From positions 1 to 64,000 of the forward strand of contig NZ_MNBL01000016.1 of the NCBI RefSeq assembly GCF_001879695.1: a stretch of 64,000 nt of DNA, read 5' to 3'. Numbering within the stretch: position 1 is the first letter of the stretch; the number at the start of each line of letters is the position of its first letter. Shown here in pieces: positions 29,126 through 41,558 of the stretch. Position numbers and translations under genes: made by a program. This stretch comes from Nioella sediminis (GTDB taxonomy: Bacteria; Pseudomonadota; Alphaproteobacteria; Rhodobacterales; Rhodobacteraceae). The notes below the pieces were generated by a model. It was not told the DNA's origin. It made no database searches and worked only from the letters and a program-made list of their open reading frames with translations.

Positions 29126-29597
29126 CCCTCGCAACCAAAGAAACATTTTCACTGCGCTTGATGCTGGAGGTTGGTTCGGCACTCCCATGGGAAGCGGACA
29201 AATGTCAGCTGAGAGCCCTCTTTGACAAATGCTGCAGATTGATCGAATGAGTGAAATGCGGTGAAACCGGGCGTAGGTCACGGGATAAATCCCCGAAAAG
29301 CGAACACGGAGATGTGAGAAAACTGCTGCCACTTGTAGTTTACACTGCAATCGAGAGTGCTTGCTGGGCAGGTCCACATTTCTGTTGACAGACTGTCCTA
29401 TGCTCGGGCTTCATTTCTGGAGTAGGAAAGAGCGAGAGCGACCAGATATGGCGCAACGCATGATGGCAAATTTGGGGCGCCGGGCAACCGGCTGTGATCT
29501 CGTCGTATGACGTGAAGCTGGCTATTTGTCGATTCGGCAGTTGCTGGACCGGGTATTCACACCTCTTCTGACTTTCCTGCATTTTTGGTTTCTCTTC
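29126..29597. other. Gene-poor region before the hydantoinase operon
   Basis: About 470 bases of visibly lower GC than the surroundings, with no gene I can support: short frames at 29021-29377 and 29340-29603 on the - strand have no recognisable protein features. It probably holds the promoter of the operon and may mark the left edge of an inserted segment. Confidence 0.5.
29385..29413 (+). promoter_or_regulatory. Possible promoter of the hydantoinase operon (weak)
   Basis: A perfect TTGACA at 29385-29390 lies inside the inverted repeat CTGT-TG-ACAG (29382-29391). A -10 candidate CTTCAT at 29409-29414 is poor (3 of 6). The inverted repeat could be an operator. It is about 210 bases before the hyuA ATG. 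Confidence 0.25.
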
Positions 29598-31697
29598 ATG
29601 CACAACAAGAACGGGCTACGCCTTGCCGTCGATATTGGTGGCACTTTCACCGATACGGTCCTGGTTGATGGGAAGGGGCATATCCTTGCCACCACCAAAA
29701 CACCGACCACTCCTGAAAATCCGACCCTTGGGGCGCTTGCGGGCACAAAACATGTGCTGGCCGGGACCGGAGCGGACTGGTCGCGGATCGGTGGCTTCAT
29801 CCATGGCACCACTCTGGCCACCAATGCTCTTATCGAGCGGCGCGGGGCCAATGTTGCGACGGTGACGAGCGAGGGGTTTCGAGATATTCTCGAGATCGCC
29901 TATGAACGCCGCTACAGCCAGTATGATATTAACCTTGTCAAACCTGATCTGATCGTGCCGCGCACGCGCGCCTTTATCATAGGCGGGCGGATGGATGCGC
30001 GTGGGCAGGAGCTGCAACCGCTTGATGAGGAGGCCGTTCGCCGGTTGACCGGGGAGCTTGATGCCTGTGGTGCCGAGGCCGTGGCGATCTGCCTGATGCA
30101 TGCCTATGCCAACCCGGCACATGAACTGAGGCTGCGCGATCTTCTGCTGGCGGCAATGCCCGATCTGGTGATCTCGCTATCGCACGAGGTCAGCCCCGAG
30201 GCACGTGAGTTCGACCGGCTCTCAACCACCATCGCCAACGCCTATATCCAGCCTCAGATGGCCAGTTACCTGATCAATTTTCAGGCGCGATTCAGCAACG
30301 AAGGCCTGACCTGCCCGATCCTGATGATGACTGCGGGCGGTGGCATGACGACGATGGAAACCGCCGCGCGTCTGCCGATCCGGCTGGTGGAGTCCGGCCC
30401 TGCTGGGGGGGCTATTCTGGCCGCGCGCATCGCTGCCGAGACCAGCGAGCGCGAGGTGTTGAGTTTCGATATGGGCGGCACCACGGCCAAGCTGTGTCTG
30501 ATCGACCGGTTTCGCCCGCAGACCGCACGCAAGTTCGAAATCGCGCGCGCGGCGCGGTTCATCAAGGGCTCTGGCATGCCGGTGCGCATCCCGGTGATCG
30601 AGATGATCGAGATCGGCGCGGGCGGCGGATCGATCGCCCATGTGGACCGGTTGGGCCGCCTGCAGGTCGGACCAGAGAGCGCGGGGTCTGAGCCCGGACC
30701 CGCCGCCTTTGCCAAGGGCGGAACCGAGCCGACGGTGACCGATGCCGACGTGATGCAGGGGCTGATCGAACCCGGGCGCTTTGCCGAAGGGCGGCTCAGG
30801 ATCGACATGGATGCGGCGAAAAGGGCGCTTGCCTCGGGCGTTGGGCAGGCGCTGAAGCTTGACGCCGCACAGGCCGCCCATGGGGTCAGCGAGATCGTGG
30901 ATGAGAACATGGCCGCCGCCGGGCGGATGCATGCTGTGGAATCGGGCAAGGATCTGGGCGCCCGGCTGATGATCGCCTTTGGCGGCAATGGCCCCTTGCA
31001 CGCCACCCGGGTGGCGCGGCGTGCGCATGTGGACCGCATCCTGATCCCGCGCGATCCCGGGGTCGGCTCGGCGGTGGGGTTCCTGTTCGCGCCGGTCTCG
31101 TTTGAAATCATTCGCTCGCGCTATAGTACGCTCGATGCGCTCGACCTCGGCGGGCTCAACGCCTTCTTCAACGCAATGATCGACGAGGCCGAGGCTGTGG
31201 TGAGGGCAGGTGCGCCAGAGGGCCTGCTGACCCGGCGACGGCAGGCGTTCATGCGTTATCACGGACAGGGGCACGAGATTGAAATCCCACTGCCTGACCG
31301 CGCCTTGGAAGAGGCGGACATTCCCGCCCTGCGCCGAGCCTTCGAGGAGGAATACAGCCGCCAATTCAGCCGCGCTGTGCCGGGCATGAAGATCGAGATC
31401 CTGAACTGGACGCTTGAGGTCGCCTCCGAGCCGCCCGCGCTGGAGCATTACGCCAAAACCCGCGTGAAACAGCCTGCGCAACCGTCCGGGCAGCGGCGCA
31501 TCCTGTGCGATGTCACCGGCAAATGGCGCGAGGCAGAAATCCATGATCGCGCCGCACTCAGGCCCGGCGACCATCTTGACGGCCCCTCCCTGATCATCGA
31601 GCCGCAGACCACCACATTCGTCAGCGCGGATTTCTCAGCTCATGTGGATGGCGGCGGCAATATCTGGCTCACACGCAACCGGGAGGGTGACCAATGA
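29598..31697 (+). CDS. hyuA: Hydantoinase/oxoprolinase A-type subunit
   Basis: 699 residues, usual size. ATP-dependent cyclic-amide hydrolase subunit (N-methylhydantoinase A / 5-oxoprolinase / acetophenone carboxylase-like family). ASKHA ATPase motifs are visible: LAVDIGGTFTDTVLVD (about 9-24), GTTLATNALIERRGA (about 71-85), SFDMGGTTAKLCLID (about 291-305) and FGGNGPLHATRVARR. No good ribosome site precedes ATG 29598; an upstream TTG frame from 29526 would add a hydrophobic tail that does not match the family. Overlaps hyuB by ATGA. Whether it opens a hydantoin, imide or lactam, or carboxylates a ketone, cannot be decided. Confidence 0.9.
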   Translation: MHNKNGLRLAVDIGGTFTDTVLVDGKGHILATTKTPTTPENPTLGALAGTKHVLAGTGADWSRIGGFIHGTTLATNALIERRGANVATVTSEGFRDILEIAYERRYSQYDINLVKPDLIVPRTRAFIIGGRMDARGQELQPLDEEAVRRLTGELDACGAEAVAICLMHAYANPAHELRLRDLLLAAMPDLVISLSHEVSPEAREFDRLSTTIANAYIQPQMASYLINFQARFSNEGLTCPILMMTAGGGMTTMETAARLPIRLVESGPAGGAILAARIAAETSEREVLSFDMGGTTAKLCLIDRFRPQTARKFEIARAARFIKGSGMPVRIPVIEMIEIGAGGGSIAHVDRLGRLQVGPESAGSEPGPAAFAKGGTEPTVTDADVMQGLIEPGRFAEGRLRIDMDAAKRALASGVGQALKLDAAQAAHGVSEIVDENMAAAGRMHAVESGKDLGARLMIAFGGNGPLHATRVARRAHVDRILIPRDPGVGSAVGFLFAPVSFEIIRSRYSTLDALDLGGLNAFFNAMIDEAEAVVRAGAPEGLLTRRRQAFMRYHGQGHEIEIPLPDRALEEADIPALRRAFEEEYSRQFSRAVPGMKIEILNWTLEVASEPPALEHYAKTRVKQPAQPSGQRRILCDVTGKWREAEIHDRAALRPGDHLDGPSLIIEPQTTTFVSADFSAHVDGGGNIWLTRNREGDQ

Positions 31698-33343
31698 GCA
31701 CCACCGACACCCGCCTGCAGGTCATGTGGAATCGGCTTCTGGCCGTGGTTGAGGAACAGGGCCAGGCGCTGATCCGCGCGGCCTTTTCCCCAATCGTGCG
31801 CGAATGCGGGGACATTTCCGCCGGTGTCTTTGACTTGCAGGGCCGGATGCTGGCGCAGGCCGTGACCGGCACGCCGGGCCATATCAACACCATGGCCGAG
31901 GCGGTAAAGACCCTGCGCGCCCGGTTTCAGCTTCAAGATATGAAACCGGGCGATATTTACCTGACCAACGATCCATGGATCGCCTCGGGGCACCTGAATG
32001 ATTTCCTGCTGATGATGCCGGTTTTCTTTAAGGGTCACGTGGTGGGCTTTACCTCCTGCACCTCGCATCTGGTTGATCTGGGCGGGCTTGGCATGGGCCC
32101 CGAGGGTGCGGACATCTATGACGAGGGGCTGCTTATCCCGCCCTGCAAGCTGATGAACGAAGGCGCTTTGAACACCCTCCTGATGGAGATCGTCAAGGCC
32201 AACTCGCGCGAGCCCATCGCCAACGAAGGCGATATCTATGCGCTGATCGCTTGCTGTGAAACCGGTGCAGAGCGGCTTGCGGGCATGATGGAGGAATTCG
32301 GCATCGACCATCTGGATGAACTGGCCGACTATATTATCGACACCTCATATCGCGGGACCGTTGAGGCTATTGCGGAACTGCCCAAGGGGACGTGGCACAA
32401 TGTGCTGAAGGTGGACGGATATGAGCAGGAGATTGACCTGCACGCGGCCCTGACCATCAGCGAAGATCGCGTTGAACTGGATTTCACCGGCACATCTGGC
32501 CTGTCGAACAAGGGCATCAACGTACCGCTCAACTATGCCACCGCTTATTCGGTGTTTGCCCTTCGCTGCATCATCGGGCCGGACATTCCCAACAATGCGG
32601 GCTCGCTTGAGCCTTTCCGCGTCACAGGGCCAAAGAACTGTATCCTGAACGCCCAGCCCCCCGCACCGGTGGCCATGCGCCATACGCTGGGGCAGATGAC
32701 GCCCGATCTGGTCTATGGCTGCCTGTCACAGGTTCTGCCGGATCAGGTGCCTGCCGAGGGCGCATCCTGCATGTACGACCTGCCGTTGCGCCACACGCCC
32801 GAAGCGGTTTCGCGTGGCGATGCGCAATTTGCGCTGGAGCTTGTGTTCAGCGGTGGCACCGGCGCGCGGCCCGGTCTGGACGGGCTGTCGGCCACCGCTT
32901 TTCCCTCGGGCGTCTGGGGCTCGCAGGTGGAAACCACCGAGGCGGTTGCGCCGGTTCTGATCACCCGGCGCGAGCTAATACCAGACAGCGGCGGGCCCGG
33001 ACGAACGCGCGGCGGGCTGGGTCAGCATATCGAGATGCGATCCGCCGTGAATGAGGATTTCATGCTGTTTCTTTCGGTCGAACGGATTCTGAACCCTGCG
33101 CGCGGGCGTTTCGGCGGGGAGGCTGGTGCGCCGGGGCGTATCCGCATCGGCCATGGCGGATCTAACCTGCCCGGCAAGGGAGAGGTTCGGGTGAAGGCCG
33201 GAGAAACGTTGCTTTTTGAGACTCCGGGCGGCGGCGGCTTTGGCGACCCACAAAAACGCAGCCGGGACGAGGTTCGCCGTGATCTGGACGAGGGGTTGAT
33301 CAGCCGGGAAGCTGCGCGCGATATCTATGGGTTCAAACCATGA
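31694..33343 (+). CDS. hyuB: Hydantoinase/oxoprolinase B-type subunit
   Basis: 549 residues, usual size for the B subunit that works with HyuA. Family signatures: AAFSPIVRECGDISAGVFD, GTPGHINTM, DIYLTNDPWIASGHLNDFLL, VGFTSCTSHLVDLGG with metal-binding His/Asp residues, and the Gly-rich C-terminal ETPGGGGFGDPQKR. Its ATG overlaps the hyuA stop and its stop overlaps the aminotransferase start, so A, B and the following genes are translationally coupled. Confidence 0.92.
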   Translation: MSTTDTRLQVMWNRLLAVVEEQGQALIRAAFSPIVRECGDISAGVFDLQGRMLAQAVTGTPGHINTMAEAVKTLRARFQLQDMKPGDIYLTNDPWIASGHLNDFLLMMPVFFKGHVVGFTSCTSHLVDLGGLGMGPEGADIYDEGLLIPPCKLMNEGALNTLLMEIVKANSREPIANEGDIYALIACCETGAERLAGMMEEFGIDHLDELADYIIDTSYRGTVEAIAELPKGTWHNVLKVDGYEQEIDLHAALTISEDRVELDFTGTSGLSNKGINVPLNYATAYSVFALRCIIGPDIPNNAGSLEPFRVTGPKNCILNAQPPAPVAMRHTLGQMTPDLVYGCLSQVLPDQVPAEGASCMYDLPLRHTPEAVSRGDAQFALELVFSGGTGARPGLDGLSATAFPSGVWGSQVETTEAVAPVLITRRELIPDSGGPGRTRGGLGQHIEMRSAVNEDFMLFLSVERILNPARGRFGGEAGAPGRIRIGHGGSNLPGKGEVRVKAGETLLFETPGGGGFGDPQKRSRDEVRRDLDEGLISREAARDIYGFKP

Positions 33344-34422
33344 TCCGTTCCGTAGGGCATATATCCGCAATGTCGCCCTATGCGCTGGCTCAACTGGAGG
33401 CGCCAGAGGGAAAGCCCCTGATCTCACTGTCTCAGAACGAAAGCCTGCGCCCGCCCAGCCCTCTTGCGATCGAGGCCGCCGCGGAAGCGATGAAGGCCGG
33501 ACATCTCTATCCCGATCCGGACTGGAGTGAGCTTCGCGCGGCGCTTTCCGGGCTTCATGGCATCCCTGCCGAAGGCATTCTGTGTGGCTGCGGGTCGATG
33601 GAACTGATCTCATGCCTCACGCAAGCCTTTGCAGATGAACAAAACACGGTGCTGGCCCCGGCTTATGCCTACCCGTTTTTCCGAACTGCCGCTCAATTGG
33701 CGCGGGCGCGCTACGACACAGCCCCGGAGCAAGACAGATGCGCTTCGGTGGATGCCCTTCTCGCTGCCGTCCGGGACGACACTCGCATCGTCTTTGTCGC
33801 CAATCCCGGCAACCCCACCGGCACCCGTATCCCGCGCGCCGAGCTGGTACGCCTGCGAGAAGGTTTGCCGGGTGATATCCTGCTGGTGATCGACGAAGCC
33901 TATGGCGAGTTTGCCGATCATCTGGGTGAGCCAATGTTCGATCTGGTCGGATGCGGCGATACGGTGGTTCTGCGCACATTCTCAAAGGCATATGGTCTGG
34001 CCGGGATGCGGATTGGCTGGGGCCTGTTCCCGCCTGAAATCGCCCGAGAGGTGCGCAAAGTGATGAACCCCAACAACATCACGACCGCAGGGCAGGCGGC
34101 AGCCACCGCGGCGCTCGTGGATCAGGCCTATATGCGAGAGACCTGCCGGGAAACGGCGGCGTTGCGCGACGAGTTCCGCGGACGGTTGGTAAAGGCCGGG
34201 CTGGACGTGCCGGAAAGCTTCACCAATTTCATCCTGATCCGGATGAAAAGCGCCGAAGAGGCCCACCGCGCTGACGTGGCCCTTCGCGCCGAAGGCGTGT
34301 TTCTGCGTCCGCAGGGCGGCGTCGGGCTTGCCGATTGCCTGCGCGCGACTATCGGCGCCTCGGAGCGACTCGACCTTACGGCCAGTCTTTTGGAACATTG
34401 GATGAATGGAGGAAAGACATGA
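33340..34422 (+). CDS. HisC-like fold-type I aminotransferase
   Basis: 360 residues. Class I/II PLP enzyme near HisC/CobC: NPGNPTGTRIPRAEL, DEAYGEFADHL and TFSKAYGLAGMRIGWG with the Schiff-base lysine at about residue 216, and C-terminal ADCLRATIGASERL with the carboxylate-binding Arg. A true hisC lies at 40476, so this paralogue probably serves the pathway of its operon, transaminating a small keto or amino acid; a decarboxylase role (CobD-like) is also possible. Overlaps its neighbours on both sides by four bases. Confidence 0.82.
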   Translation: MIRSVGHISAMSPYALAQLEAPEGKPLISLSQNESLRPPSPLAIEAAAEAMKAGHLYPDPDWSELRAALSGLHGIPAEGILCGCGSMELISCLTQAFADEQNTVLAPAYAYPFFRTAAQLARARYDTAPEQDRCASVDALLAAVRDDTRIVFVANPGNPTGTRIPRAELVRLREGLPGDILLVIDEAYGEFADHLGEPMFDLVGCGDTVVLRTFSKAYGLAGMRIGWGLFPPEIAREVRKVMNPNNITTAGQAAATAALVDQAYMRETCRETAALRDEFRGRLVKAGLDVPESFTNFILIRMKSAEEAHRADVALRAEGVFLRPQGGVGLADCLRATIGASERLDLTASLLEHWMNGGKT

Positions 34423-35162
34423 CACAGTCACGCGGGCGTGCCCGTTTTGGAATTCTTGTCCCCTTCACCAATACCAATCTCGAACCTGACATGTCGCTGC
34501 TGCGCCCCGAAGGGGTATCACTGCATTTCGCCCGCTTGGGGGGGTATGATCAGGACGAGGTCCCCGATGCAGACCAGATGCGTGGGCTGGGTGCGTCCGA
34601 TCTGGACGAACCCCTGCGTCTTTTGGAGGGCGTCCACCCGGATGTGATCCTGTATGGCTGCACCTCGGCCACGCTTACCCATGGCCCTGCTTTCGACCGG
34701 GGGCTTGCTGAGCGGATCAAGGCCGCCAGCGGGGCCAAGACCGTGACGGCGGCAGGGGCTCTGGTAAATGCGCTGAACACTCTGGGGGTGGAGCGGATCG
34801 GCTTTGCCTCGCCTTACGTGTCCGCGATCAATGACATGGCTGTTGGATTTCTGGCTGATACCGGAATTGAAACCGTAATGCGCTCTGAAGTGGGCGATGA
34901 TCTGGACAATTACGGACAGGGCAATCTGGACCCACAGGCGGTGTTCGATCTGGGCTTTGCCGCCAACCATCCCGAGGCCAGAGCGATTGTGCTGTCCTGC
35001 ACCGACATGCGCAGTGTCGAGATCATTGCCCGTCTGGAACAGGCTGTGGACAAACCAGTCATCACGTCAAATCAAGCGATGGCTTTCCAGGCCATGCAGC
35101 TTGCCGGTATCGGCGAAGCCCTGCCGGGATATGGCCAGTTACTGGAAAGGGAACGGCTATGA
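34419..35162 (+). CDS. Maleate isomerase / Asp-Glu racemase superfamily enzyme
   Basis: 247 residues. Cofactor-free racemase fold with the two cysteines expected at the active site: LYGCTSATLTHGPAF (about residues 75-90) and IVLSCTDMRSVEII (about 191-204). RFGILVPFTNTNLEPDM at the N-terminus and VTSNQAMAFQAM-type ending (here ITSNQAMAFQAMQL) are as in maleate cis-trans isomerase and arylmalonate decarboxylase relatives. In a hydantoinase operon a hydantoin racemase is the textbook partner, but the sequence reads closer to maleate isomerase. Start 34419 with GGAGGAAA upstream; overlaps the aminotransferase stop. Confidence 0.82.
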   Translation: MTQSRGRARFGILVPFTNTNLEPDMSLLRPEGVSLHFARLGGYDQDEVPDADQMRGLGASDLDEPLRLLEGVHPDVILYGCTSATLTHGPAFDRGLAERIKAASGAKTVTAAGALVNALNTLGVERIGFASPYVSAINDMAVGFLADTGIETVMRSEVGDDLDNYGQGNLDPQAVFDLGFAANHPEARAIVLSCTDMRSVEIIARLEQAVDKPVITSNQAMAFQAMQLAGIGEALPGYGQLLERERL

Positions 35163-36505
35163 ACTTCGACCGGATCGCCGAATTCGTGCTTGCGGGCCAA
35201 GACATGCCGCAAAGCGCGCTTAACATGGCCGCGACGCTGCTGATCGACACGGTTGGCGTGGCGGCGGGGGCAGCGCGCATGGAGGCGGGGCGGATCGCTC
35301 GTGATCATGCGTTTGCGTTCCACGGCGCCGGTGCTCCTGAACACGCGGCCCATATGATGTTCGATGGCCGACGCGCCTCGATCCCGGGCGCCGCCTTTGC
35401 CGCTGCCACGCAGATCGACAATCTCGATGCCCATGATGGGCTTAATCCGACCAAGGGCCATATCGGCTGCGCCGTTGTACCCACGCTGTTCGCCTTCGCC
35501 GAAGCCCGGCCGGAGCTTTCCGCACGCGATGCGCTTTCTGCGCTTGTCATGTCCTATGAGGTCGCGGCCCGGGCTGCGTTGGCCCTTCATGCCACGGTCA
35601 TCGACTATCACACGTCCGGGGCATGGAATGCACTGGGCGTCGCGGCGCTTGGCTGCCGCCTTATGGGGTCAAGCCCCGATCATCTCCGCCATGCGCTCGG
35701 GATCGCCGAGTACCACGGCCCGCGCAGCCAGATGATGCGCGAGATTGCCAACCCGACCATGCTGCACGATGGCTCGGGCATGGGTGCGCTGGTGGGATCA
35801 ATGGCGGCGCTGATGGCGCAGGACGGGTTTGCAGGCGCGCCTGCAATTACGGTTGAGTCTGACGATGTAACCCGGCACTGGGTCGATTTGGGCGAGCTTT
35901 GGACGATTGAACAAAACTATATCAAACCCTACCCGATCTGCCGCTGGGCGCACGCAGCGCTCGATGCTCTGTCCGGTCTGCTTCGCGAGCATGGTTTCCC
36001 CGCCGATGACGTGACCCGGATCGAGGTGAACACATTCGCCGAATCCGCCGCGCTGTTTCCCGATATGCCCGCGACCACATCGCAGGCGCAGTATTCCCTG
36101 CCTTTCGCGCTTGCCGTGATGTTGGTGCATGGTCGGATCGGGCCAAAAGATATTTCCGGCGCATCGCTGAGCGACCCCAAGTTGGCCGACGTGCTTTCGC
36201 GCATCGCGGTGCGCGAGGATGCCCGCCACAGCAAACGCTTTCCCGCCGGGCGGTGGTCCGATGTCAGTGTCACGCTGAAGGACGGCACCCGGCTTGCCTC
36301 GGGCGACGTACCGGCGCGCGGCGGACCCGAGGCGCCAATGGCGTTGAGCGAGGTTGAGGCGAAATTCCGCGTGATGGCCGCGGCACTCCCCGAGAATCGC
36401 GTCTCGGCGCTATGGGAGATGCGCGAGCGGCTGATGCAGCCGGACGCCAAATTCAGTGAACTGGCGCAGCTTGTCCGCGCAACTGTGGAGGAGACCGATG
36501 CCTGA
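35159..36505 (+). CDS. MmgE/PrpD family protein
   Basis: 448 residues, usual length. All-helical N-domain with AATLLIDTVGVAAGAARMEA, the central IDNLDAHDGLNPTKGHIGCA and YEVAARAALALHATV region, and a C-terminal domain (YPICRWAHAALDAL, SQAQYSLPFALAVMLV) as in 2-methylcitrate dehydratase, cis-aconitate decarboxylase and iminodisuccinate epimerase. The family covers hydration, decarboxylation and epimerisation, so the reaction is open. ATG overlaps the isomerase stop; the end overlaps the dehydrogenase start by eight bases. Confidence 0.87.
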   Translation: MNFDRIAEFVLAGQDMPQSALNMAATLLIDTVGVAAGAARMEAGRIARDHAFAFHGAGAPEHAAHMMFDGRRASIPGAAFAAATQIDNLDAHDGLNPTKGHIGCAVVPTLFAFAEARPELSARDALSALVMSYEVAARAALALHATVIDYHTSGAWNALGVAALGCRLMGSSPDHLRHALGIAEYHGPRSQMMREIANPTMLHDGSGMGALVGSMAALMAQDGFAGAPAITVESDDVTRHWVDLGELWTIEQNYIKPYPICRWAHAALDALSGLLREHGFPADDVTRIEVNTFAESAALFPDMPATTSQAQYSLPFALAVMLVHGRIGPKDISGASLSDPKLADVLSRIAVREDARHSKRFPAGRWSDVSVTLKDGTRLASGDVPARGGPEAPMALSEVEAKFRVMAAALPENRVSALWEMRERLMQPDAKFSELAQLVRATVEETDA

Positions 36506-37466
36506 CACCCCGCGTATTGTTTTGCATAACAGCGATACGGCACCGCTTGCCCGATGGTTGCGCGCCGCGTTCCCGCAGGCGGAATATCGTGAATGCAACA
36601 GTTATGAAACGCTTCCCGCCCTGATCGACAGCTACCGGCCCGAAATTGTCTACTCGGTGCGATTCGCGGGCACGCCGGGCTTTCCGCGCGACGCGCTGTT
36701 TGGCGCGGGCGGCCCGCGCTGGGTCGCCAATGGCGGGGCGGGAACTGACCATTTCGGCCAATGGAACCCTCGGAAGACCACTGTCACCAATGCAGCGGGC
36801 GTGGCCGCTGGGATGATGGCGGAATACATCTTCGGCGGATTTTTGCATTTCACGCTGGATATCCCGGGCCTGCAACAGGACAAGGCCGCGCGGGTCTGGA
36901 ACGGCCGCACGGTCAGGCCGCTCGCAGGCAAGACGCTTCTGATTGTTGGGTTGGGTCATACCGGTCAGGCGGTGGCGGCGCGCGCTAGGGCCTTCGGTAT
37001 GAAGGTTCTGGGGACCCGCGCCCGGCCAGAGCCGATGGAACATGTCGATGAGGTGCACGCAGCGGATGATCTGCCGGGCCTTTTGGCACGCGCGGATTTC
37101 ATCGCGGTCTCGACTCCGCTTATCCCGACCACACGCGGCCTGATCGGCACGCAAGAGATTGCCACGATGAAGCCCGGCGTGATCCTCGCGGATGTCTCAC
37201 GCGGTGGCGTGGTGGATCAGACCGCCCTGCACGCAGCACTGAAAGCCGGGCATGTGGCTGCGGCGGTTCTGGACGTGTTCGAAACCGAACCCCTTCCCGA
37301 AACAAGCCCGCTCTGGGCGCATGAGAACGTGATAATCTCGCCGCATTGCTCATCGGTATTTGCCGAATGGGAGAATGCCTCGTTCGACCTCTTCATACAG
37401 AACCTTGTCCGCTGGATACGCGGCGAGGGGTTGGTCAATATCGTGAACCCGGCCCGTGGGTATTGA
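36498..37466 (+). CDS. D-isomer-specific 2-hydroxyacid dehydrogenase
   Basis: 322 residues. NAD(P)-binding motif LLIVGLGHTGQAVAARARAF at about residues 150-169, then DVSRGGVVDQTALHAAL with the substrate Arg, and the catalytic His in VIISPHCSSVFAEWE. It would interconvert a 2-keto acid and a D-2-hydroxy acid such as glyoxylate, hydroxypyruvate or a longer acid. GGAGGAG precedes ATG 36498. It ends ten bases before the aldolase gene. Confidence 0.87.
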   Translation: MPDTPRIVLHNSDTAPLARWLRAAFPQAEYRECNSYETLPALIDSYRPEIVYSVRFAGTPGFPRDALFGAGGPRWVANGGAGTDHFGQWNPRKTTVTNAAGVAAGMMAEYIFGGFLHFTLDIPGLQQDKAARVWNGRTVRPLAGKTLLIVGLGHTGQAVAARARAFGMKVLGTRARPEPMEHVDEVHAADDLPGLLARADFIAVSTPLIPTTRGLIGTQEIATMKPGVILADVSRGGVVDQTALHAALKAGHVAAAVLDVFETEPLPETSPLWAHENVIISPHCSSVFAEWENASFDLFIQNLVRWIRGEGLVNIVNPARGY

Positions 37467-37476
37467 AGGAACCGCC

Positions 37477-38370
37477 ATGACGAACCGCCTGACAGGGGTG
37501 GTGACCCCGCTGCTCACACCCTATGAGGATGACCTGAGCATCGCCGAAAGCCTCTATCTGGACCATGCCGCGTTCTGTCTGGAGGGTGGCGCACATTACC
37601 TTTCGCCCTTCGGGACCACCGGCGAAGCGACGTCGAACACCATGAACGAGCGCATGGGCGTGCTCGAGCGCCTTGTCACGTCTGGCACGGCGCGGCCCGG
37701 GCAGCTTATGCCGGGCACCGGGCTGTGCAATCTCGAGGATACCGTCACGCTCACCCGCCACGCGTCGGAACTGGGCTGCGCCGCTGCGATGGTGCTGCCG
37801 CCGTTTTTCTACCAGCCTAGCGATGACGGGCTGTATCGCTACTATGCCCAGTTGATCGAAACTCTGGGGGACAAGGCCCCGAGGATCATCCTCTATAATA
37901 TCCCGCAGAATACGGGTGTTCCGATATCCCCCACCCTGTCTGCCCGCCTAAACGAAGCCTTTCCAGAACATGTTGTCGCTTACAAAGACAGCTCGGGGGA
38001 TTGGGACAATACCGCCTCCGTGATCAAAGCGGCGCCAGGCCTGTGGGTCTTTCCCGCCTCTGAAATCCTGCTGGCCGAGGCAATGGCGCTTGGCGCTGGC
38101 GGTTGCATTTCGGCAAGCTGCAATTCGAACATCACCGCTATCCGGGCCATGTATGAAGCCGTGCGGGATGGAGACCAAGGCGAAGTAGACACGCTGCAAC
38201 AGGGATTGGAAATCCACCGCAATGCAGCACAGGAGGAAGGGTTGATCGGTGGATTAAAGAGCTTGGTAGCCCACCTGTCAAACGACCAGCGCTGGCTCAA
38301 CCTACGCCCACCGCATATTAACGCCGACCCGGCTGCCGGACCGAGACTGGCCACCACACTTCCGCACTAA
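37477..38370 (+). CDS. Dihydrodipicolinate synthase-family aldolase
   Basis: 297 residues, TIM-barrel class I aldolase. GVVTPLLTPYEDD at the start, SPFGTTGEATSNTMNER (substrate carboxylate loop), YNIPQNTGVPISP with the catalytic Tyr, and VAYKDSSGDWDN with the Schiff-base Lys at about residue 170. Members cleave or form 2-keto acids (lyase, KDG aldolase, N-acetylneuraminate lyase); housekeeping dapA is expected elsewhere. Last gene of the operon, start ATG 37477 after AAGGA. Confidence 0.87.
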   Translation: MTNRLTGVVTPLLTPYEDDLSIAESLYLDHAAFCLEGGAHYLSPFGTTGEATSNTMNERMGVLERLVTSGTARPGQLMPGTGLCNLEDTVTLTRHASELGCAAAMVLPPFFYQPSDDGLYRYYAQLIETLGDKAPRIILYNIPQNTGVPISPTLSARLNEAFPEHVVAYKDSSGDWDNTASVIKAAPGLWVFPASEILLAEAMALGAGGCISASCNSNITAIRAMYEAVRDGDQGEVDTLQQGLEIHRNAAQEEGLIGGLKSLVAHLSNDQRWLNLRPPHINADPAAGPRLATTLPH

Positions 38371-39547: not shown

Positions 39548-40479
39548 CCCGCATCCCCGCCCTTGCGCGGCTTGACCCGGCCAAAGTCGGGCGCGTCGGT
39601 ATCCTGACCGGCCTCGATAATGCCGCGCCGGATCGCCCGCGTGCGGGTGAAATAATCATGCAGCGCATCGCCATCCCCCATGCGGATCGCCCGTTGCAGC
39701 ACGAAGAGCTCCTCTGTGAAGCGGCCAAGGATATCCAGCACCGCCTCCTTGTTGGTCAGGAACACATCGCGCCACATGGTCGGGTCGCTGGCGGCAATCC
39801 GGGTGAAGTCGCGGAAACCGGCGGCGGAATACTTGATGACCTCGCTTTCGGTCACGCGCCGCAGGTGATCGGCGACGCCCACCATCGTGTAGGCGATAAG
39901 GTGCGGGGTATGCGAGGTCACCGCCAGCACGAGGTCATGATGCTCGGCGTCCATTTCCTCGACATTTGCCCCCATGCCTTCCCATAGCGCGCGCAGCTTC
40001 GCCACCGCCTCCGGGTCGCTGCCCTCGGCCGGGGTCAGCAGGGTGTAGCGGTTCTCGAACAGTTCCGCGAAGCCAGAGCGGGGGCCGGAATGCTCCGTCC
40101 CGGCCAGCGGGTGGCCGGGGATGAAATGTACGCCCTCGGGCAGATGCGGGCCAACGCTGTCGATCACGTCCTTCTTCACCGATCCCACATCGGTAATCGT
40201 CGTGCCCGGGGCCAGATGCGGCGCCATCGATTCGGCCACGCGGCCCATTGCACCCACGGGCACCGCCAGAACCACCAGATCGGCGCCTTCCACGGCCTCG
40301 GAAGCGCTGTCCACGACCCTATCACAGAGTCCGATTTCCCTTGCCACGTCGCGCGTTTCCGCCGACCGCGCGGTGCCCACGATCTCACCGGCCAACCCGT
40401 CGCGCCGCATGGCGTGGGCCATCGAGCCGGCAATAAGTCCTAGGCCGATCAGCGCCACCTTCTGGTAAATCACGCTCAT
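39544..40479 (-). CDS. tyrA: Prephenate/arogenate dehydrogenase family protein
   Basis: 311 residues. Oxidatively decarboxylates prephenate (or arogenate) on the way to tyrosine. Rossmann motif [20 protein letters not shown] at residues 8-27; [29 protein letters not shown] (substrate His region) and [14 protein letters not shown] are the family's conserved stretches. There is no ACT domain. The start at 40479 overlaps the hisC stop (ATGA), a pairing seen in many alphaproteobacteria, where HisC also acts as aromatic aminotransferase. Confidence 0.92.
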
Positions 40480-41558
40480 GCCGTGCCTCCGAAATCCGCC
40501 ATCGCATCCAGAACGCGGGTGACATCCGCCTCGGACCCGACCGTGATGCGGATGCAGTCGGGCAGGCCATAGCCCGCCACCAGCCGCACGATGATGCCCT
40601 TCGATTTCAGATGCGCGTCGGCGGCCTGTGCCGTTGCCGCATCCCCCATCCGGCAGAGGATGAAATTGCCCTCGGACGGATCGGAGGGGTAGCCAAGCGC
40701 CGCCATGCCCTCCGCCAGCCGCTTGCGCTGTGCGCTGTTCACGGCCCGGCAATGATCCACATATCCGGTATCGCGCACCGCAGCCTCGGCCCCCGCCAGC
40801 GCCAGCGTAGACAGGTTGAACGGCCCGCGAACCCGGTTCAACACGTCGATCACGGCGCGGGGGGCATAACCCCAACCGACCCGCAGCCCGCCAAGCCCAT
40901 AGATCTTGGAAAAGGTCCGGGTCATCACGACGTTGTCGCGCGCATCCACAAGGCCCGCGCCGCCATCGAACCCATCCACATATTCCGCATAGGCCCCGTC
41001 CAGAACCAGCAGGCAGTTCTCGGGCAAGCCCGCCGCCAGTCGCGCCACCTCGTTTCCGCCGATCATGGTGCCGGTGGGATTGTTGGGGTTGGCGATGAAG
41101 ACAAGCCGCGTGCGGCTGGTCACCTTGTCAAGAATCGCGTCGACATCGACCGTCCGCTCCCGTTCCGGCGCGACCACGGGCGTTGCCCCCGCCGCAAGGG
41201 CGGAGATCTTGTACATGAGGAACCCGTGTTCCGTATAAAGCACCTCGTCGTCCGGCCCCGCATAGGCCTGGCACAGGAAGGTGATGATCTCGTCCGAGCC
41301 GACACCGCAGATGATCCGGTCGGGGTCCAGCCCATGCACCTCGCCAATGGCGTTTCGCAACGCGGCATGATCGGTGGACGGGTAAAGATGCATCGCCCCC
41401 GCCGCAGCCTGAACCGCCTCCACGGCCTTCGGCCCCGGCCCGAACGGGTTCTCGTTCGAGCTGAGCTTCAGCGGCTTTTCCTGCCCCGCGATGGAGGCCC
41501 CCCCGCCCTGGTAGAGCGCGATCTCCATAATGCCGGGTTGCGGGCGGATCTGGGTCAT
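40476..41558 (-). CDS. hisC: Histidinol-phosphate aminotransferase
   Basis: 360 residues, usual length. PLP enzyme of histidine synthesis, probably also transaminating aromatic keto acids given its coupling to tyr[44 protein letters not shown] and [16 protein letters not shown] (Schiff-base Lys about residue 219) are visible. ATG 41558 follows AGAAGG; an upstream in-frame start (41633) adds a non-conserved tail. It is similar along its length to the aminotransferase at 33340. Confidence 0.93.

Follow-up and report, generated by a model that had tools for sequence, protein, structure and literature searches.

A seven-gene hydantoinase-type operon in Nioella sediminis, possibly part of a route for an N-methylated, betaine-derived compound

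The question raised by a 64,000-nucleotide stretch of the Nioella sediminis genome (contig NZ_MNBL01000016.1, positions 1 to 64,000, one contig, C68, of a 3.96-Mb draft in 197 contigs; this whole stretch is called the window here) is what a hydantoinase-type enzyme might do in the company of an unusual set of partners. Seven plus-strand genes are packed within 29598–38370, with successive overlaps of 4, 4, 4, 4, and 8 bases and a final gap of 10 bases (Table 1). They encode HyuA- and HyuB-like subunits, a HisC-like aminotransferase, a maleate-isomerase-type enzyme (the isomerase below), an MmgE/PrpD-family protein (MmgE), a D-2-hydroxyacid dehydrogenase, and a DapA-like protein, all assigned by Pfam above curated cut-offs. 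An initial annotation made from the sequence alone described the same layout, overlaps, last gap of at most ten bases, and families, and coordinates and Pfam assignments agree with it; it took the seven genes as one full route, with a C4 core of the ring compound as a plausible guess. Our preferred reading, offered tentatively, is that the operon contributes to the breakdown of an N-methylated, betaine-derived compound and is built on a core of the first four genes.

The distribution of the operon was followed through its isomerase. Among 295 genomes of the same family, matches of at least 53% identity over most of the length were found in 26 (N. sediminis included); another match was partial (58% identity across 126 residues), and the remainder stood at 38% or less. 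The isomerase is also present on Ruegeria and Leisingera plasmids. The best 80 of 200 relatives from a scan of species-representative genomes were pooled with these plasmid and genome loci and 11 duplicates dropped, giving 99 distinct loci. In 86 of them hyuA-hyuB-HisC-isomerase stand in exactly this order, a core shared by many marine bacteria, and in 27 the MmgE and dehydrogenase genes stand directly behind it. All seven genes occur in order in nine (the window, L053, L074, L105, L114, L118, L119, L121, and L122), so that the co-occurrence in other genomes on which the initial annotation had staked its proposal is found. Profile re-detection over 100 loci gave counts of 93 for hyuA, 93 for hyuB, 92 for HisC, 54 for the dehydrogenase, 51 for MmgE, and 13 for DapA, the last including fragments (L042, L071), a gene truncated where its contig ends (L077), and one outside the operon (L126); a DapA gene is in the same operon position as in the window in eight other loci. 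The operon is present without the HisC gene in L048, L066, L124, L131, and L147.

For the Mantel and neighborhood statistics, loci with an isomerase shorter than 225 amino acids were left out, and 89 were kept. Pairwise distances are correlated at r = 0.88–0.93 among the four core genes and 0.82–0.90 with MmgE and the dehydrogenase, values reached by none of 999 permutations; the core genes are co-inherited. Omega is 0.06–0.23 for each of the seven genes in comparisons of the window with relatives, indicating purifying selection. Since the core is found in 86 of 99 loci and the tail in fewer, the functional unit is the four-gene core, with the MmgE-dehydrogenase tail common and DapA optional. 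This tells against a single route closed by all seven genes: the constant part is just four genes, DapA is found in at most 13 of 100 loci, and two loci have decarboxylases dependent on thiamine pyrophosphate behind the core instead. In L125 these are subunits resembling sulfopyruvate/phosphonopyruvate decarboxylase, accompanied by an aldehyde dehydrogenase, and in L130 an enzyme resembling 5-guanidino-2-oxopentanoate decarboxylase (556 bits against a cut-off of 500), accompanied by another MmgE. Together with the dehydrogenase and DapA families, these decarboxylases point to a 2-oxo acid as the branch product. What remains of the earlier interpretation is a co-conserved catabolic operon with ring opening, isomerization, transamination, and 2-oxo/2-hydroxy acid chemistry.

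The connection to N-demethylation comes from the neighborhoods of the relatives, where genes for MttB-family methyltransferases, FAD/folate demethylases resembling dimethylglycine dehydrogenase (DMGDH), and sarcosine oxidase (Sox) recur in several arrangements. In L040, L056, and L143, MmgE-SoxBDAG-dehydrogenase-MttB is convergent to the core, with a divergent LysR gene, and L037 and L039 have MttB-MmgE together with LysR. The core of a Pelagibius locus (L126) is followed by MttB-MmgE-dehydrogenase with 4-base overlaps, and genes for a ProVWX-type betaine transporter lie downstream; in L048 it is followed by dehydrogenase, DMGDH, and MttB genes. Two Roseovarius loci (L118, L122) have LysR-MttB-DMGDH-DMGDH-class-III-aminotransferase directly upstream of the full seven-gene operon. 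Within the 20-kb loci, MttB is found in 17 of 89 (8 of 50 clusters), where genome density would predict 1.2 (0.6), and full-length DMGDH-like genes in 14 of 89 (6 of 50 clusters), where 1.5 (0.8) would be expected. A matched control of 40 paralogous-isomerase loci from the same bacterial family contained one MttB, one DMGDH, and one SoxA gene, and no MmgE, hyuA, hyuB, or HisC; genes were taken from stop-to-stop frames in the control and from separate gene calling in the test set, with identical length and score cut-offs for MttB and DMGDH. Against this control, one-sided Fisher tests gave 0.008 (loci) and 0.034 (clusters) for MttB, and 0.023 (loci) for DMGDH.

Relatives of the operon MmgE that lack the core show similar company. 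L201 has MmgE-dehydrogenase-MttB, L176 (Mesorhizobium) and L204 have both MttB and DMGDH, and L174 (Leisingera caerulea) has MttB. The Paracoccus denitrificans relative (L177) is accompanied by a GbcA/GbcB-like Rieske system, a GbdR-like regulator, an OsmF-like binding protein, and betaine ATP-binding cassette (ABC) transporter genes, and an Ancylobacter locus (L175) has a similar set. The roseobacter protein MtgB, of the MttB superfamily, demethylates glycine betaine aerobically (PMC12478193), so MttB-type genes can function in such aerobes. What the roseobacter MtgBCD and the GbcAB-like loci share with the present case are the MttB or Rieske demethylases, demethylases dependent on flavin adenine dinucleotide (FAD) and folate, betaine ABC transporters, and GbdR or LysR regulators beside relatives of the operon genes; the window operon itself, in contrast, has none of these. 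The initial remark that the operon comes without transporter or regulator thus stands for the window, in which none was found inside or adjoining the operon, but not for relatives, which carry LysR genes, SBP_bac_5 ABC transporters, or the ProVWX-type transporter. Several candidates were rejected: two 234-amino-acid products beside the L126 core, suspected of being corrinoid proteins, are an alpha/beta hydrolase and an RraA-like protein; a 375-amino-acid product there, considered as a transporter part, is MetE-like; and homarine catabolism, prompted by marine N-methyl chemistry, found no support.

The N. sediminis genome has a demethylation module of its own. On contig C181 (locus L157, 8597–18070) there is a Roseovarius-type LysR-MttB-DMGDH-DMGDH-class-III aminotransferase set, with an MttB that shares 78% identity with its counterpart next to the L118 operon. 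Conserved modules of this type are present in the genomes of L105, L118, L122, and L126. The genome has nine MttB-family genes in total; the best match to the L040-type MttB is 44%. From the likeness of the class-III enzyme to a phospho-lyase (see below), a phosphocholine- or phosphonate-like quaternary amine is conceivable as the substrate of the C181 module. At a contig edge (C190:14–1351, locus L199) the genome encodes one more MmgE from this clade, which has 55% identity to the operon copy.

Turning to the enzymes themselves, D12 (in DIGGTFTD) and D291 (in DMGGT) of HyuA align with the ATP-site aspartates D11 and D295 of the caprolactamase subunit CapA. D12 is present in each of the 86 rows covering its position (the other 3 of 89 are gapped there), and D291 in 89 of 89. 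HyuB D40, H100, D103, and H125 align with the CapB metal ligands D41, H99, D102, and H124 and are invariant in 92 of 92 homologues. The CapA ATP-site and CapB metal residues have been shown to matter (PMC8453981). With both domains above cut-off, adjacent genes, and these ATP and metal residues, the pair belongs to the ATP-dependent lactamase family (oxoprolinase/hydantoinase/caprolactamase), and ATP-dependent opening of a cyclic amide, the reaction class predicted for it, is well supported and the best supported step of the route proposed below. The pair shares with CapAB of Pseudomonas jessenii the two adjacent subunit genes, the ATP-site aspartates, and the Asp-His-Asp-His metal site, but its partner genes are unlike those of CapAB and its scores (434.4 bits for HyuA, 191.2 for HyuB) are far under the NCBIfam equivalog cut-offs for caprolactamase proper, 1000 each. 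In caprolactam degradation by P. jessenii, a transaminase reportedly acts after the lactam has been opened.

Among solved structures, HyuA has its highest score with an N-methylhydantoinase (360 bits) and its next with the protein of entry 6yra (319 bits), catalogued as a 5-oxoprolinase but given as CapAB in the caprolactamase paper (PMC8453981). The first match, to that protein only, is the likeness to creatinine N-methylhydantoinase and to the N-methyl-2-pyrrolidone hydrolase NmpAB; the operon differs from these systems in having no creatinine deaminase, carbamoylsarcosine hydrolase, or succinate-semialdehyde route. Creatinine N-methylhydantoinase and NmpAB are known for a HyuAB-type opening of an N-methylated cyclic amide. 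A creatinine route, an idea from this similarity and the Sox genes, was dropped, with no deaminase or carbamoylsarcosine hydrolase among the annotated genes. Two other hyuA-hyuB pairs may be mentioned here: one on contig C27 of the same genome (locus L068), 47–48% identical, with hyuA cut by the contig end and partner genes for 405 and 275 amino acids; and one on an archaeal Haladaptatus plasmid (L041, 9195–14840), where hyuA and hyuB are joined by genes for an Nramp transporter and for an isomerase of the family found in the operon, without an aminotransferase.

The isomerase finds maleate isomerase 2xec as its top match in a profile search (E = 2.5e-27). Its predicted model (mean predicted local distance difference test score, pLDDT, 92.8) superimposes on maleate isomerase 2xed with Z = 33.9 and a root-mean-square deviation of 1.7 over 236 residues, against Z = 17.7 for allantoin racemase and 16.2 for hydantoin racemase; this comparison was a second look at the Foldseek list and covers the families on it. 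C81 is invariant in alignments A1 and A3, and C194 in A1 and in at least 90% of A3. N18, Y133, and N164 are at positions aligned with maleate isomerase, where we take the corresponding residues to have roles. The protein reaches neither the PF01177 cut-off for hydantoin (HyuE) and Asp/Glu racemases (20.6 bits, cut-off 31) nor the NCBIfam models for EutA (115.6, cut-off 318) and arylmalonate decarboxylase (79.3, cut-off 225). Profile and predicted fold together uphold the original assignment: an enzyme that folds, on the model, as maleate isomerase and keeps both cysteines is supported as maleate-isomerase type, within the arylmalonate decarboxylase superfamily. Fold, two catalytic cysteines, and the aligned Asn, Tyr, and Asn are shared with the maleate isomerase/arylmalonate decarboxylase family and EutA, whereas the window operon has no nicotinate or ectoine genes. 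Ectoine utilization was rejected for the window on the low EutA score and the lack of DoeA/EutBCE genes in the operon. In another lineage (L128, 10877–14449) the core is followed by genes for an ectoine-hydrolase-like M24 protein, a second M24 protein, and a diaminopropionate-ammonia-lyase-like enzyme, which suggests a ring-opened diamino acid there.

The aminotransferase scores 249.7 bits against the HisC model TIGR01141, under its cut-off of 276.55, and keeps the lysine of its FSK motif in 85 of 85 sequences. A second HisC-family gene (40476–41558, minus strand), 42% identical to it, lies 2 kb from the operon beside a prephenate dehydrogenase gene. Judged from its sequence, the operon enzyme is not the biosynthetic HisC.

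In the tail, MmgE has both Pfam domains above cut-off and, in a predicted model of pLDDT 91.2, the MmgE/PrpD fold, with template modeling (TM) scores of 0.87 to iminodisuccinate epimerase 2hp0 and 0.81 to cis-aconitate decarboxylase 7br9. By E-value in the model search the nearest solved protein is cis-aconitate decarboxylase; by both sequence and TM-score it is iminodisuccinate epimerase, the likeness put forward initially. The two are only about 21% identical, however, and the operon MmgE is linked to a dehydrogenase, HyuAB, and demethylases rather than to a C-N lyase. In the dehydrogenase, R235 and H283 (alignment numbering) are invariant in 52 of 52. The DapA-like protein carries the motifs GTTGEA, YNIP, and YKDSSG and is under the cut-off of every NCBIfam aldolase model. 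MmgE and dehydrogenase are fused in L113, as are hyuA and hyuB in L109. Decayed tails are seen behind an intact four-gene core in Ruegeria halocynthiae (L071, 10741–12698; MmgE shortened to 252 amino acids, with a 75-amino-acid DapA remnant) and in L042 (8240–9132; DapA fragments). One subgroup (L052, L107, L115, L117, L120, L054) combines a six-gene operon with genes for an SBP_bac_5 ABC transporter and a metallopeptidase of the M81 (MlrC) type; a DMGDH-like gene is directly upstream of hyuA in L052 and L117, and an S15-type hydrolase gene is found in L054.

A route can be sketched from these parts. HyuAB would spend ATP to open a cyclic amide, which could be a lactam, hydantoin, or imide. 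The isomerase, through its two cysteines, would racemize or cis-trans isomerize either the ring compound or the opened acid; its mechanistic class is the next best supported element after the HyuAB reaction, and its direction, like the substrate and the order of steps, is conjectural. The HisC-like enzyme may then convert an amino acid to a 2-oxo acid by transamination, consistent with the 2-oxo-acid decarboxylases that follow the core in relatives. MmgE and the dehydrogenase, fused in one relative, might carry out epimerization or (de)hydration and turn 2-hydroxy acids into 2-oxo acids or the reverse, and DapA, where encoded, could cleave or deaminate a 2-oxo-acid intermediate. Demethylases of the MttB and FAD/folate types, whose genes adjoin the operons of relatives and here lie on another contig, would take off the methyl groups. 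These neighborhoods make an N-methylated nitrogen compound of betaine type the most likely carbon source. A more specific version, in which an undescribed marine betaine-type route combines MttB or Rieske N-demethylation, MmgE working as epimerase or amine lyase on an amino or imino acid with an N-substituent, and an ATP-dependent lactamase with its maleate-isomerase-type partner opening a derived ring, as a modular set moving between Rhodobacterales plasmids and chromosomes, is more doubtful.

A number of observations weigh against a betaine-derived substrate. No N-demethylase gene was found in or beside the window operon, 72 of 89 loci have no MttB inside the stretch, and the cluster-level DMGDH excess (6 of 50 vs. 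1 of 40) falls short of significance (Fisher 0.098). Among 22 loci of MmgE relatives compared, just 5 have a demethylase (MmgE itself was called in 20 of the 22), and the Paracoccus, Ancylobacter, Caballeronia, and Mesorhizobium MmgE proteins, 45–50% identical, form a separate clade without HyuAB. The demethylation module of N. sediminis is on a contig other than that of the operon, and its linkage rests on the two related Roseovarius strains; the L105 genome has it unlinked, and that of L074 has no close copy (best 47%). The class-III enzyme of C181 is nearest to ethanolamine-phosphate phospho-lyase, with no obvious connection to HyuAB. We know of no betaine that would account for the need of ring opening.

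A substrate of the kind suggested originally, a non-methylated imide or lactam ring built on a C4 core (succinimide, maleimide, or aspartate type), would be opened by HyuAB, be turned from a cis to a trans butenedioate derivative by the isomerase, hydrated by MmgE, oxidized as a 2-hydroxy acid by the dehydrogenase, and split by DapA. The absence of an adjacent demethylase in the window fits this, as do the C4–C6 di- and tricarboxylates used by the nearest characterized relatives (maleate isomerase, iminodisuccinate epimerase, cis-aconitate decarboxylase) and the MmgE-dehydrogenase fusion, which is what consecutive steps would lead one to expect. It leaves unexplained, however, the MttB, DMGDH, and Sox genes, which occur in several independent arrangements and are near-absent around the 40 paralogous isomerase loci; the neighborhoods thus favor an N-methylated substrate, and we regard the C4 imide as unlikely. 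Some of the same enzymes could serve a 5-substituted hydantoin or ureide, with HyuAB as an ATP-dependent hydantoinase, the isomerase as a hydantoin racemase, and the aminotransferase consuming the freed amino acid. Neither the operon nor the recurrent core neighbors include a carbamoylase, though, and the isomerase is far nearer in fold to maleate isomerase than to the racemases and falls under their Pfam cut-off, so that this route seems quite improbable despite the N-methylhydantoinase at the head of the HyuA structure matches, the Haladaptatus coupling of hyuA-hyuB with an isomerase of the same family, and the C-N hydrolase genes (possible carbamoylases) near some MmgE relatives.

A still longer shot is a substrate among the opine-like iminodiacids, the lactams of these, or other amino acids in amide linkage. 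Here HyuAB would open the lactam form and MmgE epimerize the iminodiacid. The model is the succinamopine Ti plasmid pTiEU6, whose hydantoinase A/B genes have been proposed to open lactam opines, with mmgE in the same opine region (PMC6733357); the likeness is drawn from the published description of the genes. The nearness of MmgE to iminodisuccinate epimerase agrees with it, as do dipeptide-type ABC transporters (8 of 100 loci), M81 peptidases (7 of 100), and S15-type hydrolases at some loci. On the other hand, no opine-oxidase pair was seen beside any core locus, and the demethylases would be unaccounted for. An N-methylated, betaine-derived compound remains the reading we prefer.

Table 1. 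Features of the operon and its upstream region in the window.
Feature	Coordinates	Strand	Evidence
Intergenic stretch ahead of hyuA, 472 bases	29126–29597	.	Sequence read, no Rfam match
hyuA-like, ATP-binding subunit of ATP-dependent lactamase/hydantoinase, 699 aa from ATG	29598–31697	+	Pfam Hydantoinase_A 247 bits, Hydant_A_N, Hydant_A_C
hyuB-like, metal-binding subunit, 549 aa	31694–33343	+	Pfam Hydantoinase_B 491.6 bits
HisC-like class I/II aminotransferase, 360 aa	33340–34422	+	Pfam Aminotran_1_2
Maleate-isomerase-type enzyme, 247 aa, predicted catalytic cysteines C81 and C194	34419–35162	+	Pfam arylmalonate decarboxylase family
MmgE/PrpD-family protein, 448 aa	35159–36505	+	Pfam MmgE_PrpD_N and MmgE_PrpD_C
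D-2-hydroxyacid dehydrogenase, 322 aa, ATG start	36498–37466	+	Pfam 2-Hacid_dh_C 169.5 bits
DapA/DHDPS-family aldolase-type lyase, 297 aa, ATG start	37477–38370	+	Pfam DHDPS 140.8 bits

Two starts have alternatives: a longer TTG frame from 29526 for hyuA, and a GTG at 37456 for the DapA-like gene, which would then overlap the dehydrogenase gene. The stretch before hyuA is the probable control region. Riboswitch control was considered and rejected, as no Rfam family was found in the window or in L118, L126, or L048. Upstream, the operon is flanked by an opposite-strand ChaC-type gene and a 346-amino-acid frame without a family, and downstream by an extensin-like gene (opposite strand, 175 bases away) and the prephenate dehydrogenase and HisC-family genes. 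Its G+C content resembles that of the remainder of the window.

No described pathway with this gene combination was found in the open-license PMC literature searched, in line with the initial statement that none was known with this exact gene set, and we know of no betaine route with a HyuAB, MmgE, or maleate-isomerase-type step. Since all the enzyme families are known, what is new is an ATP-dependent lactamase operon with a new, conserved set of partners. Much of what algae and animals release as dissolved nitrogen compounds is recycled by marine Rhodobacterales, and many such compounds are betaines whose breakdown, to our knowledge, has not been described. An operon with ring-opening and isomerase steps that is conserved, carried on plasmids, and linked through its neighborhood to betaine demethylation is a genetic handle on one of them, and would assign functions to widespread uncharacterized HyuAB, MmgE/PrpD, and maleate-isomerase-like proteins.

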